Position numbers and translations under genes: made by a program. A stretch of 64,000 nucleotides of DNA from contig NC_068559.1 in NCBI RefSeq assembly GCF_022201045.2, forward strand, positions 26,109,501-26,173,500, given 5' to 3'. Shown in pieces: positions 3,519-63,927 of this stretch. Numbering within the stretch: the first letter of the stretch is position 1; each line of letters begins with the position of its first letter. Source of the DNA: Citrus sinensis (lineage: Eukaryota; Streptophyta; Magnoliopsida; Sapindales; Rutaceae). The notes under the pieces were generated by a model. That model was not told the origin of the DNA. It did no database searches and was given only the letters and a program-made list of their open reading frames with translations.

Positions 3519-6500
3519 ATGGAGATATTTGTATTGAATTTGAGCGCTGTGTGTTTGTACTTGGCTTTCTTACTTCACAGGTGTTTCTTCTACCTTGTGA
3601 TTACTCATTTGGTGGGCCCATTGATTTCACCATTTTGGTCCGTTGGAAATCTTTTCCAAGACATCAGGAATCGTATTAATTTTGCGCCAAATTGTGGAAA
3701 AATGTGTGATTGTGTTTGTTAATGTGATTAAAAAAATTCCACTTTGATGAAGTGAAAATGTTTCCAAATTCAGGGTATCATCTATATCAGAAGCTGTACC
3801 GGTCCGTGCTAGCTCACCGCCAAGAGGTTGGAACTCTTATGATTCATTTTGCTGGACCATTTCAGAAGAAGAGTTCTTGCAAAGTGCTGAAATTATTTCG
3901 CAGCGTTTACGTCCTCATGGATATGAGGTATAAGCATTATACACAGCATGGCCAGCAGCTAAAAGCTTAATTTTTAAGCCATTTTGGAAGTTATTTTTAT
4001 CATTATTTTTATTTTCCTTGTATTGTGAATTTGTGATAATGGACTGTTGGAATTTGGAAACTAAACTTGATGTTTCCCTTCTTTTTGTGTATGGATGTAG
4101 TATGTTGTGGTGGATTACCTCTGGTATAGACGAAAAGTGAAAGGTGCTTACGTTGATTCTCTTGGATTTGATGTTATCGATGAATGGGGGAGGATGATCC
4201 CGGACCCAGATAGATGGCCATCATCCAGAGGAGGGAAAGGGTTTACTGAAGTAGCCAAGAAAGTACATGCCATGGGTTTGAAGTTTGGGATTCATGTCAT
4301 GAGAGGCATAAGTACTCAAGCATTTAATGCAGACACCCCTATCTTGGACACTGTCAAGGTATTACTTCTCTTATTTATGTTAAAGACATAAGTTCTCAGG
4401 ACTGTGTGAGGTGTTAGATCCGAAGGTTAATGATTGAGTCTTTATTTTTTCTTTTCATCAGGGAGGTGCCTATGAGGATTCAGGTCGACAATGGCGGGCA
4501 AAAGATATAGGGCTCAAGGAAAGGGCTTGTGCATGGATGCAACATGGCTTCATGAGTGTAAATACCAAGTTGGGAGCTGGAAGAGCTTTCTTGAGGTCAC
4601 TGTATCAACAGTATGCTGAGTGGGGTGTTGATTTTGGTAATTTGAGAATTACTTGAAAGTCATCCTTCTTGTTATGTCATGATGAATACTTGAAAGTCAT
4701 CCTTTCTTGTTGTGTCATGATGAAAACTAGTTGAAGTTTCAAATTCCTTGTAGGTAGCATCCATTTTCCCTAGGAGCCATTGTTATGCATCATCAGATGC
4801 TAAGAGCCATTTTTTTTTTGCCCCCCCATGAAAGCATAAATCAGGCATTAACTTTCCACCTAGGCTAAAGGCTAAATCAAGTCCCAATTAACCTGATGAA
4901 ATTACCTGGCTAAGGTGCTGGCTTTTGATTTTTCTGTAGCATTGGTTAGTGCATCTTCTTTTTTAAGTACCATGCATCAATCACAACCAAACTATAGCAT
5001 CACTTTATTTACTTTCCTGGACTGGCTTCATCTAATCTTTTCTAATTTATATCCTTGGTCTTATTGCAGTAAAACATGACTGTGTATTTGGTGATGACTT
5101 GAACATAAACGAGATAAGCTTTGTGTCAGAGGTACAGATTAGTGCCTGATAAAATTAGCGATAATCTCACTAAATTTTTTGGGGCGGAAGTCATACATAT
5201 GAAGAGCATTTGTGCAGGTTCTAAAGGAGCTCGACCGCCCCATTGTATATTCTCTGTCTCCTGGAACCGGCGTGACACCAGCTATGGCCAAAGAAGTAAG
5301 TGGATTGGTCAACATGTACAGGATCACTGGGGATGACTGGGATACATGGGGAGATGTGGCCGCCCATTTTAATGTTTCAAGGTAAATAAAAGAGATACAT
5401 ATGCATTAAGACCTTAGAATTATGCTTCCGTTTGAGCTATTTTATTCCTTGTCTTCATATCTCTGACATGTTTGCAATTGCTTTAGAGATTTCTCTGCTG
5501 CCAATATGATAGGCGCCAAGGGCTTGCAAGGGAAGTCATGGCCTGACTTGGATATGCTGCCACTGGGGTGGCTCACTGATCCAGGTTATGTAAATTGGAA
5601 ACTAGTTCTCTCTTTCATCTGGAACATTCTTGGACCGGTTGATGACAGTGGGATTGATGACAGTGGAGTAGCATACAACGCATATCTACCACTCAGTACT
5701 TTTCTGCATGTATTAGTAAGACAAAGAAATAATGAGATGGTAGCTGCTAACTCTAGGCTTGTTGCTCAGCATCTGTCTAACATATCCAAACTCTCAGCCA
5801 CATGACACAGGAACTAATTGTCTTGCATTCCATCCCTATAAAGCATATTATTCTTAAGTAGAAATGTTTTAGGAGCTAGCAGCGTTGGTTCTTGGAGCAA
5901 ATTTTGTGTCATAAGATTACTAATCATGAAATTGAAGTACAGAGGGTTTATGTCTTGTGATTTCATAAAGTTGCAAGTGATGGTTGGTTAGCTTGGCAGA
6001 TTAAATGAAAAAAAAGTTTCCAGAATGGATGAGAATCCATAAAACTAACTTGGATATTTTCATGTGTTCCAGGTTCAAATGAAGGTCCACATAGAACTTG
6101 CAACCTTAATCTAGATGAGCAAAGAACTCAGGTATGCTTGCATACTTATATTTGAGTTAGTTTGTTGATATTTAATAGACTAGCATTCTTTTCTCACCTT
6201 CTTCATTTTGCTTAGCAGATGACTTTGTGGGCTATGGCCAAATCTCCTCTCATGTTTGGTGGAGATGTAAGAAAACTTGATGAGACTACATATTCCTTGA
6301 TTACAAATCCTACGGTGCTGGAGATAAACACTTTTAGCTCAAACAATAAGGAGGCATGTGAACACATTCTTATAATTGTGTCGGAAGAATATTTTCCTCT
6401 AGCATCGTACCTAACTTTTTGTTGCATTACAGTTTCCTTATATTATTGGAACAAAGGGAAATACTAGGAAAATTAAGGTCACCCCTCCACATCTTTCAGA

Positions 6501-8296
6501 AGTCGCTGAGTCAAATACACATGTTCTGGGTCTCACTAGCTGTAAGGATCCAAAAGCAAACAGTTGGTCAATTCAAGCTCATGACCAAGAGCTTGAAGAA
6601 ATCTGCTGGAAAGGAAAATCAGGAAACAAAATTGGGGAACCTTTATGCTTATACAAGAGTCGAGCGCTTTTGTCTTCGTAATGTTTATTTCACCTATTCA
6701 TTATTGGATTTATCTGTGTGATTTTGTTGTCATTACTTGCACTTGATTAATGATCATGATTTTCAACTTAATATGAATGCTGATGTAGAGATGGAGAGAT
6801 GATTTACAAGCAGCAGTATCAGGGGAAAGTTCATCTACTAGCAAGTAAAGGCGTGGGGGTGTGCTTGGATGCTTCTCCAAAGTGGAAGCTTACTTCTAAA
6901 GAGTTGAGAAGAGGATCATTTTCTAAGTGCAAAAGAGATGCCAACCAGGTACCCCTCGGTGTCAAGTGATTTTACAAAGATTTAATGGTTGTTCTTCTAC
7001 CATGAAAAGAAGGAAAGCATAACCAAGATATGTCATTAGAAGTTCTAGCTATAAACATAAGATGCAAAAAACAATCAATTCATTTTCAGTAAGAAACATT
7101 TACAACAAGAGGTTTTCAGGAGACCTTTTGTCTACCACTCCCAGTCATTACCAATTTGATTCAACTAAGCCTTAATACTAGCTGGACAGGAAAGTTGATA
7201 AGTTCTCTTTCTTGGAATTAGAACTTGAGGTTTATGAGCTTAACCCTATTCAAATAAATCTAGCCGTATATGAGAATCAAACTCTATGACTCATCTCAAT
7301 TTTTTATACTATTGATATTTATTCCGAAGTGAAGTTTATATGATTGAGATTTTAACTCAAAACTTTGCAGATGTGGCAGTTGAACCCCAGTGGAGCCCTC
7401 ATTAGCAGTTATTCAGGTCTTTGTGCCACAGTGAATTTAGTTCAAGGTGATAGTTCTAAGCAGATTTTCTACATGCTAATGATAAACATCTGAAAATTGT
7501 TTTTAAGATGATGATTCTGAATGGCTAACTTATGTGTTATGCAGCTGATGTTGGTTCTGGTGGAATTCGTTCTTGGATTGCAACTGGAAGAGAAGGTATT
7601 TCTCTAATGCTTTATCTTATGGCTTAGAATCACTAAAAATGCTCATTTGAGCACTTTACAAGTAGAATGATAAATGAAGGTCAATCACCCATTTGAAAGC
7701 TATTTCACTTCATTGAGGGAAGCTAAAATGTAACTAATTATGACGAAGACTAAGGAAAAAAAAATGATTTTGTTTTTGCTTGGAAACAAGTCTTTTTAAG
7801 AGACTTGTTTGTTGGTTGGGAGCTATCAATACCTCAATCTTTGAAAAGGGTAGCTTCTCTGATGGTTATGCTTAGTAAAGGAGACAAGTCGTTCTCCAGA
7901 ATTGCTTCTGCTTAATAATCACTTTCCTTATCATTGTATCTTGCTCTTAGTGTTCAGCTTCTTGTCACAATTCGTGCTGAATTATCACATCCCTGCAATC
8001 TATTACTCTTGTAAAACAACGGGGTTGATGTTTTTTTCAGCTGAATTTGATTACTTTGTTTCCTTGCTTATTCAGGAGAAATATACGTTGCTTTTTTCAA
8101 TCTGAACACTGAAAAGACACTAATATCTACCAAGATATCAGACCTAGCTAAGGCACTACCTGGAAAAAACCTCAATGGAGCTTCATGTAAGTGCCGAGAA
8201 ATTTGGAGTGCAAAAGACTATGGAGTGTTACAACAGACACTATCAACGGCAGTGGGGATGCATGGTTGTGCACTATTTGTTCTGAATTGTGATTAG
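3519..8296 (+). CDS. GH27 alpha-galactosidase / beta-L-arabinopyranosidase-like protein, copy A (full length)
   Basis: Predicted secreted glycoside hydrolase removing terminal alpha-galactosyl or beta-L-arabinopyranosyl residues from cell-wall glycans; closest known type is Arabidopsis APSE (At3g26380, from memory). Fourteen exons keep frame: 3519-3580, 3774-3927, 4101-4358, 4462-4636, 5070-5131, 5218-5381, 5487-5584, 6073-6131, 6219-6353, 6433-6677, 6789-6948, 7371-7446, 7545-7595, 8076-8296; 639 aa. Residues 1-21 are a signal peptide. PPRGWNSYDSFCW opens the GH27 barrel; KHDCVFGDD holds the expected nucleophile D220 and SWPDLDMLPLG the acid/base D314. A C-terminal module with CLDASPKW and QMWQLNPSGALISSYSG looks like a ricin-type (QxW) lectin fold. 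Intron 9 uses a GC donor (6354). It is followed by a tandem paralogue in the same orientation. The family is certain; the exact substrate is inferred. Confidence 0.92.
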
Positions 8297-9570: not shown

Positions 9571-9580
9571 TCTATAAATA
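9571..9580 (+). promoter_or_regulatory. Putative TATA box of GH27 copy B
   Basis: TCTATAAATA lies about 35-40 bp upstream of the ATG at 9613, which would give a very short 5' UTR. No comparably placed TATA box was seen upstream of copy A, so the two copies may differ in promoter type. Confidence 0.55.
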
Positions 9581-9612: not shown

Positions 9613-12532
9613 ATGAAGTTCTTTGCATTGAGCATTCTTTGTTTCTTCTCTAGCCTACTCCTTCACAGGTACCTCTTTTTCTTATTACCACTAACATTAC
9701 AGTTACTTGCAAGACACTCTTGAATGCGTAGGAAATGAGAAATGAATGATAGTATTTGTTTGTTATTTTTGATCAGTGAGTTAAAATTTTTACTATGATG
9801 AAACAAATAATTAGGAGATGTCTTGGAATTCAGGATACCGTCTGTAAATGCAGCAGACAAAGAGACAGAACATGCTGCCTTACCGCCCAGAGGCTGGAAC
9901 TCGTATGATTCATTTTGCTGGATAATCTCAGAACAAGAATTCTTGGAAAGTGCCGATATTGTTGCTAAGCGTCTTCTTCCTCATGGATATGAGGTAATCA
10001 ATTGCTCCATCTCGTAAGGTGGCATAATGAACTTACGTAAATGAGGCTTAAATTTTCTTAACGTGTGTAAAATGATCTAGACAAACTGGGAAGGGCATGA
10101 CGCAAATAATATCGGACTAATTAATGGCCTTTTTTTTTTTTCTTTTTCATTGTGTGTTTTATGTAATGTGATGCAGTACGTTGTGGTGGATTATCTCTGG
10201 TATAGAAAGAAAGTGAAAGGTGCACATATAGATTCAGAAGGGATAGATTTGATCGATGAATGGGGAAGAATGGTGCCTGATCCTGAGCGATGGCCATCTT
10301 CGAAAGGTGGGAAAGGGTTTACAGAAATAGCAAAGAAAGTACATGATATAGGTTTGAAGTTTGGGATTCATGTGATGAAAGGAATTAGTACCCAAGCGGT
10401 TAATGCTAACACCCTTATCTATGACTATGACAAGGTATCAACTCATAAAATTGATGTCAAATATGCGAACCACAGTAGGAACTGCTCTGTTTGACGCATT
10501 ATTGTCTTGATATTTGATCAGGGAGGTCCTTACATGGAGGCAGGTCGCCAATGGCGGGCGCAAGATATAGCCATCAAGGAAAAGCCATGCGCATGGATGC
10601 CGCATGGATTTATGGCCGTAAATACAAAGTTGGGAGCTGGCAAAGCTTTTCTGAGGTCACTGCATAAGCAGTATGCCGACTGGGGTGTTGATTTTGGTAC
10701 ATTTGAACAATTTCCTTCCATTTTTATTGCCATGTTACTAATTGTTCTCAATCTTTTCTCTCGTTTAATAAACTCTTTCTCCTTTTGTCTTGCAGTGAAA
10801 CATGATTGTGCATTTGGTGATGACTTGGATGAGGGTGAAATAGCCGTTGTGTCGGAGGTAAAAAAATCCTGCTTTTGGTAAAATCAATTAGTCATAAATC
10901 TATAAGTTTACAAAATAATCACATTAAAAAAATACAGACACACTTTTAAACTGTATAAAATTATCTTTTAATGAACTATAGAGTTATAAAATTTAAGAAA
11001 GTTAAAAACTAACTTTTCTAAGCCTCTTAATTTAAAAAAAAACATGGGCACATAAAAAAAAAGAAGTATGTCCGCACTTAAAAAAAAAAAAAAACCTCTT
11101 TTACAAACTTTGAGGTGATAATCCTTATGACATTTCACCGTGCAGGTTTTCAAGGGGCAACAAAACCGTCCAATTATCTATTCTTTGTCTCCAGGAACAA
11201 GTGCAACACCAGCTATGGCACAAAAAATAAATGGATTAGCCAACATGTACCGGGTAACTGGGGATGATTGGGATAGTTGGCCAGATGTTGCTGCCCATTT
11301 TAGTGTTGCAAGGTAGATTATGGATTCCATGAGAGCTTAATCAGAATTTTTTTCCCTCCTTTTTTTTCAAAAATATGTGCTTTGTTTATTATTCATTATT
11401 CCATATAGGGATTGAAATGTGTCACCTTTTGCTTCAGGGATTTCGCTGCCGCTAATATGACCGGCGCCCTGGGCTTGAAGGGAAAGTCATGGCCTGATTT
11501 GGATATGTTACCACTGGGGTGGCTTACTGATGCAAGTAATATATGTTGGAAAATTTTTGCTCTCTTTCATAAATATTCAACGAGATTCCGTTATCCGAAT
11601 TATGTAGCATGCTTGGACACTCTAGTTTTTCAAATTTCAAGAATGGATGCAAAGTAATTCACAAATTAATCTTGATGTTTTCATGTTTTGTCAGATTCAA
11701 CTCAAGGTCCATACAGAGCTTGTAAACTTACTCAAGATGAACAAAAAACTCAGGTATGCTTGTATATGCAAATCTGAATTGGTGTTTTGATCTTTGGTAA
11801 AAGGGCTCATTCATTTCGCCTTCACACAGATTACTTTGTGGGCGATGGCCAAATCTCCTCTTATGTTCGGAGGAGATGTAAGAAAGCTTGATGACACAAC
11901 GTATGGTCTGATTACAAATCCGACTCTGCTGGAGATTGACCATCATAGCTCAAACAATAAGGAGGCAAGTACAGGCAACACAAACACACATAGTTAAGAC
12001 AGCAATCTGAAGAATACAAATTTCCAAATGCTTCATATCTAATAGATTTTCTCTCGCCTTTAATTACAGTTTCCTTATATTAATGGAGGAAAAGGAGGAG
12101 CTACTGGACCAAGTGCTGGAGCTGTTGCTTCGGGAGTTCGTTCTTGGATTGCAACTGGAAGAAAAGGTTTGATTTCTTTGCCAGTTATCTTGGTCACGTT
12201 CGGCTTCGGCCTTGAGGATTGAACATCACATATTAAAAATTTTATGTTATATGTGCATTCTTTTCTTAATTTACATTCCATAGTTTGATTGTTTCTATCT
12301 TTGCTCATCCTCAGGAGAAATATACCTTGCATTCTTCAATCTGAACAATGCAAAGACGACGATTTGGGCCGAAATAGCAGACCTGAGCAAGGCAATCCCT
12401 GGGTGGAAAATAAAGCCTCCATGTAAAGGGACTGAAATCTGGAGTGGAAAAGACTTTGGAGTGATGAAAAAGTCTGTATGGGCAGAAGTTGAGACCCATG
12501 GTTGTGCACTATTTGTTCTTAATTGTAACTAG
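9613..12532 (+). CDS. GH27 alpha-galactosidase / beta-L-arabinopyranosidase-like protein, copy B (lectin-like module missing)
   Basis: Tandem paralogue of the upstream gene. Eleven exons keep frame: 9613-9668, 9834-9993, 10177-10434, 10522-10696, 10796-10857, 11146-11312, 11438-11535, 11695-11753, 11830-11964, 12070-12166, 12315-12532; 494 aa. Signal peptide MKFFALSILCFFSSLLLH, GH27 opening PPRGWNSYDSFCW, nucleophile motif KHDCAFGDD and acid/base motif SWPDLDMLPLG are intact. Exon borders match copy A through exon 9, including the GC donor at 11965. Exon 10 then starts like A's exon 10 (FPYI) but passes through a short GGKGGATGPSAGA linker straight into A's exon-13 sequence (RSWIATGR). About 145 residues are missing, including the QxW lectin-like module; there is no stop or frameshift, so it is probably functional but with altered glycan binding. 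Confidence 0.92.
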
Positions 12533-23439: not shown

Positions 23440-23616
23440 GATTGGTGTTAGACCAAAATATAAAAGGCCCAAACCCACGAAAAATATAAGCCCAATGAAA
23501 TTATTTTATATAAAATAACTTAATATTGTTCTCTATAAGAATGACCAAGATACTAACAATTCTAACTAAAGTGTCTAAATGCAAGACACGACAAAAAAAA
23601 TAAAAGTGTGATTCAA

Positions 23617-24071
23617 CAAAGAACGACGTAGGTCCATTCTTGACAAAGAACGACGTAGGTCCATTCTTGACAAAGAACGACCTAGGTCCATTCTTGACAA
23701 AGAACGACCTAGGTCCATTCCTCGCAACGAACGACCTAGGTCAATTCCTCACAAAAAATGACATAGACACTTAGAAAATATTTATAAGTAAAATGCTCAA
23801 AGGGCGAGTCTTCGAAAAAGTACCAAAGACATGATTTAACAAAGAATGACATAGGTCTATTCTTTATAAACAGCGACCTAGGTTCATTCCTCGCAAAGAA
23901 CGACCTAGGTCCATTCCTCGCAAAGAACGACCTAGGCACTTAGAAAATATTTCTTAATACGCCTAAAGGGTAAGGCTTTGACAAAATGTCAAAGGCACGA
24001 TTTAACAAAGAACGACCTGGGTCCATTCCTCCTAAAAAACGACCTAGGTCCATTTATCACAAAAAATTACC
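23617..24071. repeat. 27-bp minisatellite in a higher-order arrangement
   Basis: The unit is CAAAGAACGACCTAGGTCC followed by ATTCCTCG (27 bp). Block 1 (23617-23755) has about five units, block 2 (23838-23934) about three to four, block 3 (24005-24071) about two. Between blocks a related spacer of about 70-80 bp recurs, starting CACTTAGAAAATATTT and passing AAAGGG to end ACGATTTAA or ATGATTTAA. This gives a nested repeat: 27-mers inside a larger unit. Confidence 0.8.
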
Positions 24072-24117
24072 TAGATACTTCGAAAATATTACTAAATAAG
24101 AGCACACGAGCTACTTG

Positions 24118-24345
24118 AAATGGGCCTACGGGCAAATACAGAATGGGCTTACGGGCAAATACACATTCTACGGAATGCGCCTACGGGCAAATACACATTC
24201 TACGGAATGGGCCCACGTGCAAATATACATTTTACGGAATGCGCCTACGGGCAAATATACATTCTACGAAATGTGCATATGGGCAAATATATGCATTTTA
24301 CGGAATGCACTTACGGGCAGAATGCACTTACAGACAAAATGTTGC
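24118..24345. repeat. 32-bp minisatellite
   Basis: About seven copies of a unit like ATGGGCCTACGGGCAAATAC plus ACATTCTACGGA (32 bp). All three plus-strand frames are open across it because the unit contains no stop and its length is not a multiple of three. These frames are artefacts of the repeat. Confidence 0.85.
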
Positions 24346-32880: not shown

Positions 32881-33948
32881 TAATTCCAAGGCGTTAGTCT
32901 TATTGGGGATAAAATTATGCTATTAGTTTCTTTGCTAACTAAAGCGTGTTTGATAAACATTTGATGTTGTGATGTTGAGTTAATTTTATCGCATACCTAT
33001 ATAATTATACACACACACACTATATTTGTTAATAAAATTATATTTATCACACGCTATCAACTTTTATTCTATAATTACAATTTTTTTTAGTAGTTATGAC
33101 TTAAAAACTATAATACCTTTATGCTATACAGCCTAAGTCTTAATGTATATTAATTAGATGATAGCTCTTCACTCTTTGCCGTTTGTATTGCTACATCTAT
33201 AACAGTGAATTAATTGGTATAAAATTAGCTTTACGATATATGTCGTGTTTGTTAATTTATTTTATATTAGAAAGAAGCGTAAATGCATGATGAAAGCTAC
33301 TTGCATCATCAATTTAGGGACCTGTTTGTCTGGAATTGAACCAACTAAATTCATTATAGACAATTTAGTAGCACACGGATGCAATAAGTGAAGTTGGGGT
33401 TATATTTTGAATTCAGAACAGCCTGTTCCCATTGTTAGCCATTGTGGCTGTGAAACAAAAGTTCTAGTTGAATATGACTTTTCAATAATATTTTATACAA
33501 AATAATAAAAATAATAAAAGTATTTTATCTCACAATTATGAAATAGAAGTTTATCAAACACTTTGGACTGAATTTAAAAGTCATAGGTGCTCCACATCAA
33601 TATAGCGGATAAGCAATGTTTGATTTGCTTTCTCTAATCCTCGGAGCGAATTGATTGGACCCTTTTTTTTTTTTTTTTGGGAACCTGTATCATCAAGTTG
33701 ACATTATTTTATTTTAGTACCCTGCTAATGCAACCATATTATATTACAACTAGTAGTTGAGGGTAATAGCAGCACATTAGTTTAATTGTTTTCTTAAAGA
33801 AAGTACTAGTAACATCTTTTGTCTTACGATTCTTAGATCCAGTTCAAGAACCATAAAATTTCTCTATCTCAATCTGGAACTAGCAATTCAGTAACTTTGT
33901 TTTTGCTTGACCTAAAGAAGGTCTAACAATCAAAAGGATAAAGCCTCC
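32881..33948. other. AT-rich intergenic DNA upstream of GDSL gene 1
   Basis: No gene or RNA supported. Pieces near 33030-33120 resemble the right end of the AT-rich element family at 32655 and 39590. A T-run lies at about 33664-33679. Confidence 0.4.
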
Positions 33949-35695
33949 ATGGACTGGTTAAGAATTATCAGAAGGAAGAGATGGAGAGGCCTCTGGAAAT
34001 TTAAGAAGAGTCTAATAGCATTGATGACAGGCATCGTTTTGGTTGTTCCGTTTCTAAGTTCCTCGAATGCTTGTAGCTTTCCAGCAATATATAACTTTGG
34101 AGATTCGAATTCGGACACAGGTGCTGTCTCTGCTGCATTTGGTCGGGTACCTTTCCCCAATGGCAAAACCTTTTTCGGTAAACCTTCCGGAAGGTTCTGT
34201 GTCGGCCGTCTGATCATTGATTTTATAGGTAACTCTAGTTGTATATTCATTTTATCCATATTGCAAGGAGATTTTATTATTTGAATTCAGTAATAGGTCT
34301 AATAATAGTAGGATTGAAGGTCTGTTTAAGATGAGGTGTTGTGATTTTTTAGTCCACAGTTGTTGTGACATGGAATAACTAGCTGTTAAGTTTACAATGG
34401 AAATCTAGTTCTTGCTCCGATATGATCAACTATGTTTCTGGTTTTGAGTAATATCACAAGGAACAAAATTTATGTGCACTTTATATTGCACACTCCCATT
34501 TCCCACCGTGCAGCTGAGAGGTTGGGGCTACCATTCTTGAATGCATATCTTGATTCTTTACAACCAAATTTCCAACATGGAGCAAATTTTGCTGCTAGTG
34601 GATCTACAATTCAGCCAGTGGATGGTAAATTATTTGGGGCAGGTTTTAATCCTTTATCTCTCAATATTCAACTGTCGCAGTTTGAACAGTTGAAAGAACG
34701 ATCTACGGAGTTGTACAATCAAGGTTAGAGATATTCAAACACTAGGGAAACATGAGAATTACTTCTTTTGATTAGTCTTGATGCTTCTTTGGCCTTATGA
34801 GTTCTATCTTTTCAGCCAAAACCTCACAAATCAAAAGTAATCTCCCGAGACCAGAGGACTTCTCAAAGGCACTTTACACGTTAGATAGTGGACAGAATGA
34901 TCTTCAATTTTGGCTTGAATCAATGAGAGAGGAGCAAGTTAAGGCATCCATCCCCAATATAATCGACCACTTTGCTTTGGCTATTGAGGTAAGCAGCTCC
35001 CACAAGATGCCCCAATATGAAAGTTGGCCCTAAATAGATAGAGGAGGGTATTCCCTAAAACAACCAATTTGCTTTTGAATTGTTACAGAAACTTTATCAA
35101 GAAGGAGCAAGAAAATTTTGGATACATAATACTGGTCCCATTGGCTGCTTGCCCTCAATGGTTATTAAGTATCCTCCGAAGCCTGGCAACGCAGACCAAA
35201 ATGGCTGCATTAGGCCTTTCAACGAGGTGGCACAAGAGTTCAACAAGCAACTTACAGACAGAGTTTCCCGACTAAGAGCCCAACTTCACGATGCAGTGCT
35301 CATTTATGTTGATATTTACTCAGCTAAATATACTCTAATTACTGAAGCAAAGAAACATGGTATGTTGTGATTTATATTATCATCTGTGATTTCGTTTGAC
35401 TGTCTCATTAAACTAGCTTGAGATAGGGAACATGTTTGATTCAATTGCAGGCTTTGTTAGCCCATTTGAGTATTGTTGTGGGAACTGGAGGGAACATGAT
35501 GCTAAATGCTGGGAGAAAGTTATATTAAATGGAACTAAAGTTGGTGCGGCTATATGTAATGATCCTTCAAAATATATTAGCTGGGATGGCATACATTATA
35601 CTGAAGCTGCAAATCACTGGATAGCCAACCGGATTATGGATGGCTCATTCTCGGATCCTCCTGGTTCAATCCCCAATGCATGTATGCAATCCTAA
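33949..35695 (+). CDS. GDSL esterase/lipase 1 of local cluster (FXG1 / At3g26430 type)
   Basis: Secreted SGNH/GDSL hydrolase of the subgroup containing Arabidopsis At3g26430 and FXG1 (At1g67830). Five exons keep frame: 33949-34228, 34514-34723, 34816-34988, 35089-35359, 35451-35695; 392 aa. A basic N-terminus (IIRRKRWRGLWKFKK) precedes a hydrophobic segment at about 21-38, so it may be a signal anchor rather than a plain signal peptide. Catalytic Ser53 in [10 protein letters not shown]; block II Gly/Asn in HGANFAASGST and SGQND; catalytic Asp356/His359 in WDGIHYTEAAN. The block is GDSN rather than GDSL, normal for this subgroup. It is the most diverged of the three intact copies. Substrate is unknown; FXG1 was reported as an alpha-fucosidase. 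Confidence 0.9.
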
Positions 35696-36849
35696 AAATG
35701 ACCAAAGGGATCAAATCCAGAGTCACTGGTTCCGTAGACCAGCGACTTATCCATTGGCGGGGTCTATTCGTCATGATAACATTTTATCCAAATCATTATA
35801 CCGAAATTACAATTAGGGAATTTTGTTTTTGAATAAACAGAGGACAGATCGAACTTGAATAGTAGTAATTGGTGCATCATTTTGCGGATTACGCTACTGA
35901 CCAAATCCAAATGCCAACCGTCTTTAGCCTGTCTTATCCTGACACAAGAGATGAATCAATTAGACTTTATCTCCCATAGTGTATAAGTAGCCAACGGATA
36001 TGATTCTAAAACCTTCAGAAAAAGGAATCAAAATTAAAACATGTTTTAACGAGAAACTGCTACGTGCCAACCCCAGTGACAATTTGATCCGTGCAATCAC
36101 TTACCCAACTTGACACACCAGACAGCCTCACTAAAGATAACAAAGCTAAAGCTCCAAAAAGTAACCCACGTCACTCAACAAACTCTATCCAGCTGATTAC
36201 GAAAACAGTTGCCTTTTCAGATTAAAATGGTTCATAACCCTCCCCAGATTGGATTTCACCATGTGTATGATAGCTTTGATTTTTTGCATTAAAAATATAT
36301 ATAATAATGATGAGTTTTGGATAACTGTTACGATACAAATGGCAAATATGCTGATTTCTCCTTGGTCAAGTTTTCCTTGTAAGGACACTTTGATCAATGT
36401 AGGAAACTCCTTTTATCAAACCTGTTAATGCGGCCATTTTATCTTAACTTATTATATACGAATTATCCAAACATGGCCTAGTACTTCAAAATCGATACCC
36501 TCCAAGGCAATTAGATCTGTGATAATTAAACTTAGCAAATCCTCCTCCCCAGAACCGCCGGAGTAATTAAATATATCCCCAAGGATAAGATTAACAAGAT
36601 TCTAAAAATCATCATCATATCACATTAACCTTCTAGTTCCTGCATTTACAAAGCTGCCCCCAACAATAAAAACCAATCAGAACACTCAAATGCCACTACA
36701 TTTCTAGAAACGTAAATTCAAATATTTTTTGGCCCCGTTGCGCAGCACGCACGCCTCAACCTCAAGAGTCTTTATATTCCAAATTTCCTTCAGCGTTACA
36801 ATAGTAATACTCTTCGCCCACTGAGCCCTTTTGAATTCACACTAGCCTC
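35696..36849. other. Intergenic region between GDSL genes 1 and 2
   Basis: No gene, RNA or repeat supported. Contains the 3' region of gene 1 and promoter of gene 2. Confidence 0.5.
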
Positions 36850-38574
36850 ATGGGGTCACGTTCCTTTTCACCTCCTATCACCATCTTAGTGCTGGTCTTA
36901 TTGAACTTCACTCCCTGTTTGGCCTTGGCCAAAACCAGTCAGTGTAAATTTCCAGCCATCTTCAACTTCGGTGACTCGAATTCAGACACCGGTGGCTTGT
37001 CCGCAGTCTTTGGTCAGGCTGGTCCCCCTCATGGCATGTCATTCTTCGGCGGCCCCGCCGGGCGTTACTGCGACGGCCGCCTCATTGTTGATTTCATAGG
37101 TATACATAAATATTCTTGTTTAATTTGATGGGATTTTAAGGAAAAAAAAAAGGATTAATAGTTAATGTTACACAAAAATTTCTTAACAAGGTAGTGAGGT
37201 GTCCGATGAGTAGAAGAAACAATGTGTTGTCTTTTTCACGTGGAATGTTTGATAATATCCACCGACGCTATCAAAATCAAAATCAAAAGCTTCATCCACT
37301 TTTAGATTTGGTCCCACGCTGTAACTTCTAATGTAGAGCACGCATGCAGCTTGTCCCTTTTTTTTTTTCTTTTACTTTTATCTTCAATTATTTCAAGCGT
37401 GACAAAGATATTTTTAATCATGTAACATTTTATTATTTATTTATTTACTTATTTATTGTGAAAAAATAAAAAATTTCAGCTGAGGCCTTTGGGTTACCGT
37501 ACGTGAGTGCATATCTTGATTCGATCGGCAGCGACTTTTCTCACGGAGCCAACTTCGCGACGGCAGGATCAACGGTGAGGCCCCAGAACACGACTCTTCG
37601 GGAAAGCGGCTTCAGCCCCATCTCATTAGACGTTCAGTGGAATGAGTTTTATGACTTTCATCGTAGATCCCAAATTGTTCGCAACCATAGTGGAGCCTAC
37701 CAAAAATTATTGCCTGATCTTGATGCAGCTTTGAAAAGGCTGCCTAAGGCTGAAGATTTCCCTAACGCCTTGTACACATTTGACGTTGGCCAAAACGACC
37801 TCACTGCTGGCTACTTCGCTAACATGACCACCGATCAAGTTAAAGCATACGTCCCTGAAGTTGTCACTCAGCTCCAAAACGTTATCCGCGTAAGTCATGT
37901 GTATTATTTATTTAATTATTGTTTAGTCGTTATTCGATGATTAATTGTTAATTACATACATACAGTACATATACGGGCTCGGAGGTAGATACTTCTGGAT
38001 ACACAATACGGGTCCGGTGGGTTGCTTACCGTACGTATTGGAACGTATTCCGGTGTTGGCCTCACAGGTTGATGAGGCTGGGTGTGCAACTCCTTTCAAT
38101 GATGTGGCTAAATATTTCAACAGCCAATTGAAACAAGCCGTTGTTCAATTACGAAAGGATTTACCATCCGCTGCTCTCACCTATGTTGATGTTTATTCTG
38201 TTAAATACGCTCTCTTTCACCAGCCCCAGAAGCACGGTTAGTATATCTTTTAATTCATTAACTAATTAATTGCTGATCGTAGGTCAAAAGTAATTTATTG
38301 CACCTGCACAGGGTTCAAGCAATCGATAAGGAATTGTTGTGGGCGTGGCGGGAGGTACAATTACAACATCAATGTGGGGTGTGGGCAAACCAAAATGGAG
38401 CACGGGAAGCAAGTGCTGCTGGGGAAGCCGTGCGACGATCCTTCAGGTTATGTTGTGTGGGACGGCGTTCACTTCACTCAGGCGGCTAACAAGTTTATTT
38501 TTCAACAAACCGCTGGTGGTGCATATTCGGATCCGCCAATTCCTCTGAATATGGCATGCCATCGAATTGAATGA
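36850..38574 (+). CDS. GDSL esterase/lipase 2 of local cluster (FXG1 / At3g26430 type)
   Basis: Four exons keep frame: 36850-37099, 37480-37889, 37966-38236, 38312-38574; 397 aa. Residues 1-28 form a signal peptide (hydrophobic core ITILVLVLLNF). Catalytic Ser43 in [11 protein letters not shown], oxyanion Gly in [12 protein letters not shown], Asn in DVGQNDLTAGY, Asp361/His364 in WDGVHFTQAAN. Like its neighbours it carries FWIHNTGPVGCLP in the middle. It differs from genes 1 and 3 in having exons 2 and 3 fused: the intron that separates the KLLP-proximal segment in the others is absent with no gap in the protein. Expected to be an apoplastic esterase; substrate unknown. Confidence 0.92.
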
Positions 38575-38883
38575 ATAACTGTTCAAGCACGTTAATGAGT
38601 TTCATCTGCTCTTCCTCTAATTGTAATTTCCATTTATGCAATGTTAATCTTATCCTATATCTGACCACTACGTGTTTAGTCGCATAAAACCAAAGTTCAA
38701 ATAGGCAAATTGTGTGTGATAAATGCGGCTCATCATAATTAAGTTTCTAATTTATGGAGACCAGGTCATCACAACTTGCGGATAAATTCTTTATTACTGC
38801 TTTGCTTTAGTCAACCTCCACTCTCTCATCTTATATCAATCTCCTCAAATTTCGTCCATCTGTCTCTGTTTTCCTCTTCTTTC

Positions 38884-41379
38884 ATGGAGCCTTGTTACCT
38901 GAAATACATAACCCTTAGCCTTAATTTAGCCCTATCCATATCTGCAGTAACATCGTTGCCAAATTCTCCCAAAACTAAAACATCTTTAAAGACTTGTAAT
39001 TTTCCTGCCATTTTTAACTTCGGTGACTCCAACTCCGACACCGGCGGTCTATCAGCGGCATTTGGACAAGCCCCATATCCCAATGGAGAGACATTTTTTC
39101 ACTCCCCCGCCGGACGTTTCTCCGACGGGCGTCTGATTATTGATTTTATAGGTACTCAAATCTTACTTCCAAGTTCTTTTTTTCTTTTTTCATTTCATGT
39201 TTTAACTCTCCGTCCTCAGGGTAACATGCATGGTTAAATCAAATATTGTTGGCTAGCTTGAACCTTGGATCTTTAATAATTTCTCACGCAAACGATAATT
39301 GTTGCACGAAAATTCTCGCAAGAATAAAAAAATTTTAAAAAAAATTCTACCACTCTTTTAATTTTCAAAATATTCGAGAGGCATAGATCTCAAGAACATT
39401 GGTCCACGAACGGTGCAAGTTTTGACGGTCATGAAAATAGCTAGCGACACAACAGATTTGGATTATTGTTCTGTAATTTTTGTGAAATCAATTATTATAT
39501 TTTAAACAGTGCAGCACGTGATGTGATACCAATAATTAAAAATGAGAAACATGCATAATGATGATTTGACTTTTTATCACCCAGATATTAACATTGGGTA
39601 GCTATAATTTAAATATTATATTATTAAAATATTTAATAAATACTAATTGTTATAATTTAAAAATTAAGTTGTTTTGATCCATTATGGGTATGATGAAAAA
39701 TTTATAATTTTTTTAGTTAAAATTATTATTCAAAAGTCACATTTACTATATATTATTAACTGTTTTTATAAATTTAATTTTTAAAATAATTATATCTTAA
39801 AAGTTATAATACCTCACAATCAAATAGGGTCAACGTTTTTTTTTTTTACGTTAAATTGGAATCTTTATCAACAAAAGTGAACTTGAATAGTTGCACGTGA
39901 GTTTTTGCCGGACATAATTCTTATCATCGAGGGTGCTGCAATCTAATTAAATTTAGTTTAATTGAATCTATTTTATTGTTAATTAGATTATAATTTTTAT
40001 CTTTGAAAAAAAAAAAGAAATTAGAATTTGATTTTACAGCTCAAGGATTGGGACTCCCTTATCTTAGTCCATATCTCGATTCTGTGGGGTCAAACTTCAG
40101 CCACGGAGCTAATTTTGCCACTGCTGGCTCCACCGTTAGACCTCAAAACACAACCATGTCTCAGAGTGGATACAGTCCCATTTCAATAGATGTTCAATTT
40201 GTTCAGTACTCAGATTTCCGTCGAAGATCTTCAGTATTTAGAAAACGAGGTGAACACATTCATGCGTAATTACCTTAATAAGAACATTATTAATGTCACT
40301 CAATGTATATATATTGCTGGGACAAAAATGGATTTAATCTTTCGAATATATTTTACTCTGGCAACAGGAGGGGTTTATGAAAAATTGCTGCCCATGGACT
40401 ACTATTTCGCCAAGGCTCTGTACACGTTCGACATTGGCCAAAACGATCTCACTTCTGGTTTCAAACAGAACATGACGTTTGATCAAGTTAAGGCTTATAT
40501 TCCTGATGTGCTGCGCCAGTTCTCCAATGTCATTAAGGTAAAAAAAAAATAAGACTAAGACAAAACAAGCAGACCCGTTTTCTTTTTCTTCATGAATAAT
40601 AACAAGGTTGTAATTATTAATGTTGTTTTGGTTCATTGATTCAGAATGTGTATGCACAGGGGGGCAGATCATTTTGGGTTCACAACACTGGCCCATTGGG
40701 CTGCCTCCCTTATACTTTGGACCGCTTTCCAATAATGGCGGCCCGGATTGATAACCACGGCTGCGCCACCCCGTTCAATGACGTGGCTCGCTTCTTCAAT
40801 AGTAGATTGAAAGAAGCTGTGGTTCGGTTAAGGAAAGATCTTCCTTTGGCTGCAATTACCTACGTTGATATTTACTCTGTCAAACATTCTCTCATCACTC
40901 AAGCCAAGAAACTAGGTAATGAGCTAGACATTTTCGCTTAATATGACAAATACAAAACCCTAAAGTCAGTGGTCATCGAATATTTTAGCTTTTTTCTTTC
41001 GTTATAATCTTTACAAATTAGAAGCCAAACGATCTAAATTCTTTGATTATAAAATTAATAACTTTGTTTAGATTATATTGATAATTTGTCACGATGGTTG
41101 TTGTGATGTGTAGGTTTTGAAAACCCTTTGCTAGCCTGCTGTGGGCATGGTGGGAAGTACAATTACGACAAGAACAGGAAATGCGGGAGCAAGGTTACCG
41201 TAAATGGCAAGGAAATAGTGGTTGCAAAATCCTGCAAAGTTCCATCAGTTCGGATAAATTGGGATGGGGTCCATTACACAGAAGCAGCCAACAACTGGGT
41301 TTACGATCAAATTATTAATGGCTCGTATTCAGACCCACCGATTCCAATGAAAATGGCTTGTCGCGTAATGGACCACTGA
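38884..41379 (+). CDS. GDSL esterase/lipase 3 of local cluster (FXG1 / At3g26430 type)
   Basis: Five exons keep frame: 38884-39151, 40040-40249, 40368-40537, 40645-40915, 41114-41379; 394 aa. I chose the ATG at 38884 because the open frame upstream has no in-frame ATG and looks like leader. Signal peptide about residues 1-25; Ser49 in [34 protein letters not shown]; Asp357/His360 in [11 protein letters not shown]. It is closest in sequence to gene 2 (shared VRPQNTT and AVVQLRKDLP-like stretches) but keeps the five-exon structure of gene 1. The 0.9-kb first intron contains an AT-rich repeat copy at 39590-39835. Only 309 bp separate it from the gene 2 stop. Confidence 0.92.
39590..39835. repeat. 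AT-rich MITE-family copy 2, in intron 1 of GDSL gene 3
   Basis: Same ordered landmarks as the copy at 32655-32880. It ends near AAAAGTTATAATACC-TCACAATCAAATAGG, a motif also echoed at 33095-33125. Non-coding. Confidence 0.4.
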
Positions 41380-63366: not shown

Positions 63367-63614
63367 CCACGATTTATTGTATATAATCAGTGATGGGCAA
63401 CTCAATAATATGGTCCAGACAGCTCAGACCTCTGCTTGCTTAATAGAAACTTCTTGTGCTCATGCTGAATAAATTCCTCAGCCTCTGCATCCACGATTTA
63501 TTTTATATAATCAGTGATGGGCAACTCAATAATATGGTCCAGACATCTCAGACCTCTGCTTGCTTAATAGAAACTTCTTGTGCTCATGCTGAATAAATTC
63601 CTCAGCCTCTGCAT
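63367..63614. repeat. Recent 124-bp tandem duplication spanning a gene's 3' end
   Basis: Copies 63367-63490 and 63491-63614 differ at only two positions (TTGTATA versus TTTTATA, and CAGACAGCTC versus CAGACATCTC). On the minus strand the unit contains the last 29 or so codons of the small protein at 63526-63927, its stop codon and adjacent 3' UTR. The copy at 63491-63614 is the coding one; the other lies entirely in the 3' flank. Confidence 0.93.
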
Positions 63615-63927
63615 CCACGTTTTCTTCTATCTTCTTCTTGTTGACCTTAGCATGCACAGGAATGCGAGCAGGTTCGTAATTTACTACACGAATCCTCCTT
63701 GGTTCCTCAGGAACATACCCCATATAGTCGTTGAACGTTGGATTACTATATTGATAATGTTGGCCTTCAGGGAATGGCATCGGCTCCAGAGTGGTAGCAT
63801 AAACTGGGTAACCATCTGACATGGAACCATAAACTGGGTAACCGTTTGATGAATCAAAGCTTTGATATCGCCTGGCGTGATGGTGCTCGTGTCGATGATG
63901 CTCAGGGCTTCCATTTCCATACATCAT
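63526..63927 (-). CDS. Small His/Tyr-rich plant protein with DUF761-like tail
   Basis: Intronless 133-aa open frame on the minus strand; I do not recognise an assigned family. The N-terminus is His-rich (EHHRHEHHHARRY), followed by a Tyr/Pro/Gly-rich middle in which NGYPVYGS and DGYPVYAT repeat, then PEEPRRIRVVNYEPARIPVH, a Lys-rich stretch and an acidic-to-basic C-terminal helix AEAEEFIQHEHKKFLLSK. That last motif resembles the DUF761 C-terminal signature (AEEFI-x-F-x-x-Q). No signal peptide or membrane segment. Met1 and Met2 are adjacent possible starts. Composition bias and the conserved-looking tail favour a real gene over chance. The final 29 codons plus stop are duplicated in tandem just downstream. 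Confidence 0.7.
   Translation of the reverse strand: MMYGNGSPEHHRHEHHHARRYQSFDSSNGYPVYGSMSDGYPVYATTLEPMPFPEGQHYQYSNPTFNDYMGYVPEEPRRIRVVNYEPARIPVHAKVNKKKIEENVDAEAEEFIQHEHKKFLLSKQRSEMSGPYY

Follow-up and report, generated by a model that had tools for sequence, protein, structure and literature searches.

Probable secondary loss of a ricin-B-like lectin module from one of two tandem GH27 genes of Citrus sinensis

The window under investigation, i.e., the whole stretch of 64,000 nt of Citrus sinensis that was analysed (contig NC_068559.1, positions 26,109,501-26,173,500 of the forward strand, assembly GCF_022201045.2), harbors two tandem GH27 genes, referred to as A and B, both located on the plus strand (Table 1). 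The comparison of the two copies, taken together with the published architectures of plant APSE, makes it very probable that the lectin module has been secondarily lost from the duplicated APSE gene B, which has thereby come to a two-domain plan like that of the bacterial GsAbp. According to the proposed history, A and B derive from the tandem duplication of an APSE-type GH27 gene of plants, a type whose enzymes trim the beta-L-arabinopyranosyl (in rice, also the alpha-galactosyl) ends of cell-wall arabinogalactan. In B, a deletion with its ends in the two trefoil-flanking exons, probably a single event, would have taken out the module in frame; both strands of the hairpin that carried it would have remained and been rejoined via a Gly/Ala-rich loop, so that the barrel and the sandwich of B could still fit together.

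Table 1. Coordinates of the two GH27 genes and of the features at the deletion junction (positions within the window).
Feature	Position	Strand	Remarks
Copy A	3519..8296	+	14 exons, 639 aa; three-domain APSE-type GH27 gene (spliced translation open)
Copy B	9613..12532	+	11 exons, 494 aa; GH27 gene without lectin domain
B exons 1-6	9613-9668, 9834-9993, 10177-10434, 10522-10696, 10796-10857, 11146-11312	+	
B exons 7-11	11438-11535, 11695-11753, 11830-11964, 12070-12166, 12315-12532	+	
Intron 9 with GC donor (GC-AG)	A 6354-6432, B 11965-12069	+	common to both duplicates
A exon 10	6433..6677	+	spliced model
A exon 11	6789..6948	+	trefoil; no B counterpart
A exon 12	7371..7446	+	opens with the M of the QxW-type repeat NQMWQLNPSGALISSYSGLC; no B counterpart
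A exon 13	7545..7595	+	linker end and second hairpin strand, RSWIATGR
A stretch without B counterpart	6460..7547	+	from the 3' portion of exon 10 to the beginning of exon 13, including exons 11-12 and three introns
B exon 10 (fusion exon)	12070-12166	+	97 nt; A-exon-10-like start FPYI, Gly/Ala-rich linker, A-exon-13-like end VRSWIATGRK
B exon 10 linker stretch	12097..12129	+	mostly without clear A counterpart; an alignment of its final bases with A exon 13 is possible

The exon models of both copies were placed by hand from the sequence, and all of their introns are of the GT-AG type, with the only exception of intron 9 in each copy. Both proteins pass the Pfam cut-offs of the GH27 profiles Melibiase_2 and Melibiase_C (in B, E 4.9e-19 and 2.7e-7, respectively). 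In A, the order of the Pfam matches is Melibiase_2, Ricin_B_lectin (the latter below its cut-off) and Melibiase_C; in B, no ricin-B match was retrieved in the Pfam search at E up to 1, and no NCBIfam match was obtained. The loss of a lectin-like module from B, proposed in a first-pass annotation of this DNA, is the best reading. A third GH27 copy was searched for in the 64-kb window and was not found. The regions upstream of A and B share no similarity, and those downstream share only two matches, of 16 nt and 18 nt. A 38 bp tandem duplication (4650-4728) is located in intron 4 of A, just past the donor site.

The junction lies in exon 10 of B, whose first 27 nt are identical to A exon 10 at 23 positions and whose last 30 nt are identical to A exon 13 at 29, so that the description of an exon starting as the former and ending as the latter is confirmed. 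When the B gene was compared with the A gene by blastn, the two flanks were recovered as separate anchors, the left one (25 nt, E 4e-6) joining B 12063-12087 to A 6426-6450, the right one (36 nt, E 1e-10) B 12133-12168 to A 7562-7597. At the protein level, FPYI aligns as the end of the strand that starts in exon 9. The block of exons 10-13 spans 1163 bp in A (532 coding nt) versus 97 in B, i.e., a net shortfall of 1066 bp and of 435 coding nt, corresponding to 145 in-frame codons, in agreement with the approximately 145 residues that had been reckoned as absent; likewise, the spliced frame of B is open across its 11 exons, without the stop or frameshift whose absence had also been pointed out. 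Since one in three of the deletions of this kind preserves the frame (967 of the 2900 enumerated), the kept frame alone is unsurprising.

The proposal of a deletion between two exons stands, with one limit. Its ends do fall in the exons flanking the trefoil, but more than the simple joining of two exons is seen at the junction, because about 10 residues of the Gly/Ala-rich linker of B have no clear counterpart in A. At both ends, this linker resembles the A linkers when the alignment is inspected by eye (NGGKG/IGTKG and VASG/VGSGG). A derivation of its middle part (12097-12129) from a piece of the A insert was considered and set aside, the best match being equalled by 22 of 200 shuffled sequences.

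It might be asked whether the short exon of B is an artefact of the assembly or of the exon prediction, B really possessing a trefoil. The exon model was indeed built by hand from the sequence; however, the junction is embedded within a single open exon that has its own diverged linker, and no trefoil-coding stretch was detected in the B introns or elsewhere in the window, A excepted. In the tblastn search, no convincing trefoil trace emerged outside A in the window, the other hits having E values of 3.5 or more. Introns 9 and 10 of B are just 105 and 148 nt long, too short for 435 nt of exons to fit in them; on the basis of their length and of the lack of a tblastn trace, extra exons hidden in the introns of B were ruled out. 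An artefact is thus highly improbable.

The stretch of A without a B counterpart, whose borders are accurate to a few bases, codes for the ricin-B-like trefoil together with the linkers on its sides. Taken alone, the exon 10-13 segment of A matches the Pfam Ricin_B_lectin profile with an E value of 1.4e-5, under the curated cut-off (25.7 bits vs. 29), over positions 53-103 of 126. In the comparison with solved structures, a repeat protein ranks first (E 5e-7), although none of its individual stretches reaches significance, and the next one is a CBM13 xylanase (E 0.055), which weakly resembles the NQMWQLNPSGALISSYSGLC stretch (13.0 bits for the best stretch). Since no solid sequence match to solved structures was obtained, the identification of the segment missing from B as a ricin-B-like beta-trefoil of approximately 145 residues leans on published work: according to the consulted portions of PMC12137362 and PMC12470104, a ricin-B-like beta-trefoil occupies the same spot in the models of rice APSE, between the GH27 domain and the C-terminal all-beta domain, and, among grass GH27 proteins, ricin-B-like domains are confined to the APSE clade, although the presence of the domain is not stated there for every member of the clade. 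The six cysteines of A located between residues 426 and 542, an even number, all fall within the lost part.

In order to place the insertion site in the GH27 fold, bacterial relatives were retrieved from genome contigs. When A and B alone were used as queries, no relative was present among the 43 pattern matches; a second scan, in which stretches of GsAbp and of 3CC1 were added, provided at least 578 confirmed bacterial relatives, the best 80 of which were retained. The comparison at the site was carried out on 79 of these, the remaining one (L020) being cut by the contig end. In all 79 site-spanning proteins (among the best 80 of at least 578), the barrel is joined directly to the C-terminal sandwich. 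The gap between two landmarks, i.e., the TN motif that follows the barrel and the Trp column of the sandwich (Trp in 74/80 bacterial relatives), is 24-29 residues long in the 79 proteins, whereas B has 41 residues there and A has 186; the Gly/Ala-rich loop of B is accordingly 12-17 residues longer than its bacterial equivalents. In 11 of the 80 relatives, more than 150 residues follow the Trp column, and therefore extra domains occur at the C-terminus in these proteins instead.

A structure model of one relative (L047), built from a 30-sequence alignment, has a mean pLDDT of 90.8 and TM-scores of 0.92 with the solved GsAbp and of 0.86-0.87 with BH1870 (3CC1). At the site, the model exhibits a strand (350-357, DSNRQLYL), a turn (358-360, TED) and a second strand (361-367, KAAWAAS); in this modelled protein, the insertion site is hence a beta-hairpin turn of three residues. 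Transferred through the alignment, this turn suggests that the trefoil of A sits inside the tight hairpin turn with which the C-terminal beta-sandwich begins. Both hairpin strands are kept in B according to the alignment (NNKEFPYI and VRSWIAT, on either side of the Gly/Ala-rich loop), and the alignment of B with GsAbp (4NX0) forms a single stretch (residues 31-489), whereas that of A falls into two pieces. The direct joining of barrel and sandwich in the 79 bacterial relatives and the location of the site in a hairpin turn are the new elements of this analysis.

In the GH27 family at large, the two-domain plan is older than the three-domain one. This raises the possibility that B represents the ancestral two-domain form and that the trefoil was gained in the A lineage after the split, with gene conversion possibly keeping the barrels alike. 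The absence of the insert from the 79 site-spanning bacterial relatives agrees with the greater age of the two-domain form at depth, and the protein identity between the A and B barrels (75%) is not high. However, the trefoil has been reported in rice APSE and, judging by mass, is most likely present in Arabidopsis APSE, while the synonymous divergence between A and B is only about 0.7-0.8; moreover, the longer loop of B resembles the A linkers at both ends. A gain in A is quite unlikely on these grounds, and the loss in B is the simpler history, because the three-domain plan occurs in rice and most likely in Arabidopsis, and A and B are sisters whose dS is below saturation. In the barrel tree constructed with the 79 bacterial proteins, A and B have branches of 0.16 and 0.20 on a common stem of 1.43, far from the bacterial proteins. 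Between rice and Arabidopsis genes, dS is expected to be saturated, and the A/B value is well below that expectation. Both the direction and the timing of the change lean on the published plant APSE architectures, next to the synonymous divergence.

As for Arabidopsis, the calculated mass of its APSE is given as 68,863 Da in the portion of PMC5853685 consulted, in which it is not stated whether the signal peptide is counted. The calculated mass of A is 70.9 kDa whole and 68.2-68.5 kDa when cut after residue 21 or 24, and that of B is 54.6 kDa whole and 51.9-52.2 kDa when cut at the same residues. The Arabidopsis protein most likely possesses the insert, then, since its mass fits A and not B. 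The median identity between grass and Arabidopsis APSE exceeds 70% according to the consulted part of PMC12137362, and the identity between the A and B barrels is not clearly above it; this would fit a split that is older, or a change that is more rapid, than the synonymous rate implies. Proteins combining GH27 and ricin-B domains in plants are mentioned in the consulted portions of PMC11212257 and PMC5485960, the latter with gene counts of 0, 4, 0, 1 and 1 in a table. If the columns of that table follow the order of the abstract, the count for Arabidopsis is 0, which might suggest that automatic annotation misses weak trefoils; a trefoil reported as absent in databases therefore needs to be checked against the sequence. 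A lectin-free APSE is not described in the titles and abstract openings searched, and the APSE-clade tree of PMC12137362 may hold one.

The catalytic barrel of B, whose retention had already been recognized in the first-pass annotation, yields the Melibiase_2 match given above. Of the 70 columns strongly conserved in the bacterial relatives (at least 76/80), 61 are kept in A and 61 in B. At the columns of the catalytic nucleophile and acid/base, where Asp is found in 80/80 bacterial relatives, A harbors D220 and D276 and B D220 and D277; D220 aligns with the residue that Ala replaces in the catalytic GsAbp mutant (4NXK), and the spacing of A is the same (56) as that of D226 and D282 in OsAPSE, as given in the consulted part of PMC12137362. 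Both copies have Tyr78 at the specificity position, a column that was set by the motif and by the bacterial Ile/Glu, without a direct alignment to AtAPSE. In Arabidopsis APSE and OsAPSE, the specificity position is likewise occupied by Tyr (PMC5853685, consulted in part), a bulky residue in the place of Asp.

In the barrel, dN/dS between A and B is 0.17-0.21, with a dS of 0.68-0.76, and in the C-terminal domain and in the N-terminal stretch it reaches 0.43 and 0.64, respectively (values obtained with one method only); all these rates span the whole time since the duplication, not just that since the deletion. The identity between the two copies is lower in the C-terminal domain than in the barrel (60% vs. 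75%, Fisher p 0.006). One might suppose that B is decaying or is not expressed, the deletion being one lesion among others: the C-terminal branch of B exceeds the one of A in length (0.42 vs. 0.22), the mean unique changes of B in that domain are slightly more numerous (3.7 vs. 2.8), and its Lys140 replaces an Arg that is present in A and in 80/80 bacterial proteins. Nevertheless, the 11 exons of B are free of stops, frameshifts and damaged splice sites, the barrel has the low dN/dS reported above, with mean unique changes of 10.2 and 10.3 for A and B, respectively, and a TATA box lies 40 bp upstream of the start codon of B (TATAAAT, 9573-9579); no match to the same pattern was found in the 150 bp before the start of A. 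Moreover, in 126/126 bacterial pairs whose barrels are 70-80% identical, the C-terminal identity ranges from 0.20 to 0.56, below the 0.60 of A and B (the comparison covers 78 bacterial proteins, L020 and L064 being left out as cut, and the pairs are not independent). A decay of the C-terminal domain of B was rejected on the basis of this comparison, and B is unlikely to be a decaying or silent copy.

The two copies can be framed by comparison with known proteins. On the basis of the published descriptions, plant APSE (At3g26380, OsAPSE) shares with A and B the GH27 barrel, the specificity Tyr, the C-terminal all-beta domain and a signal-like N-terminus. The ricin-B-like domain, a distinctive trait of APSE according to the consulted portion of PMC12137362, is present in A and absent from B; for this reason, A is classified as APSE-type and B merely as an APSE-derived GH27 protein. 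The solved proteins closest to both copies by sequence are GsAbp of Geobacillus stearothermophilus (4NX0) and BH1870 of Bacillus halodurans (3CC1), in which the barrel is followed by the beta-sandwich, as in B; these proteins are, however, bacterial and approximately 39% identical to A, their interdomain link is much shorter than that of A and B, and in proteins of this type the specificity position is usually occupied by Ile (65 of the 80 best relatives) rather than by Tyr. In the consulted portion of PMC4598101, GsAbp and Bh1870 are assigned to a newly apparent group of GH27 that also comprises two characterised beta-L-arabinopyranosidases. SaArap27A of Streptomyces avermitilis (3A21), a GH27 beta-L-arabinopyranosidase, has a CBM13 module that constitutes the C-terminal domain IV (same source), whereas the module of A is inserted where the barrel meets the sandwich. 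Chitinases of class I and class II are another case of plant hydrolases that carry or lack a sugar-binding module, the fold and the module being different from those of GH27.

Regarding the function, recombinant Arabidopsis APSE is specific for beta-L-arabinopyranosyl residues (PMC5853685, in the part consulted). The rice GH27 domain alone, when made in a cell-free system, displays both alpha-galactosidase and arabinopyranosidase activity (PMC12137362), and therefore a trefoil-free form can be active; the MBP-tagged rice GH27 domain from E. coli had no measurable activity and the refolded full rice APSE had a low one (PMC12470104). These reports, both consulted in part, agree on the difficulty of producing rice APSE and its parts in soluble form, and in the former the role of the ricin-B-like domain is only supposed, in that it "might enhance substrate binding". 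Both enzymes would trim the terminal sugars of arabinogalactan within the cell wall. B would be expressed and active, and would act on the same sugars as A, without the hold on the polysaccharide of a lectin domain of its own; the trefoil of A may keep the enzyme on the polymer, a hold that B would lack. A more specific picture is tentative and, on balance, doubtful: B would be a maintained working APSE, a natural return to the bacterial two-domain plan, operating on soluble or mobile arabinogalactan, with A operating on the wall-bound polymer. If this were true, the hairpin-turn site would have allowed the reclosure of the protein after the loss of the trefoil, and the two copies would represent a natural test of the role of the lectin domain.

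The loss of a domain after a duplication is a familiar type of event, and the value of this case lies in the natural test pair. The first-pass annotation had spoken of a module-swap pair; this term is wrong, a module having been lost instead. A and B, with and without the domain in one plant and with barrels approximately 75% identical, offer a natural comparison for the role of the domain, and the hairpin-turn site suggests how a domain can enter or leave a glycosidase without wrecking its fold.

Other features of the window can be mentioned. On the minus strand, two ORFs of 170 and 258 aa (475-2069) appear transposon-like by eye only, no Pfam match being found for them at E 0.001. The plant-specific Pfam families eIF-4B and DUF868 are represented among the genes of the window, and what looks like a cluster of GDSL lipase-like genes in tandem extends over 33916-41376; in this cluster, the ORF 37470-37937 matches Lipase_GDSL, and the other members were assigned by visual inspection of the GDS motif. 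Tandem repeat arrays with units mainly of 27 and 32 bases are located at 23616-24327, and a 124 bp unit is tandemly duplicated at 63367-63630 with 96% matches, a degree of similarity suggesting that the duplication is probably recent.
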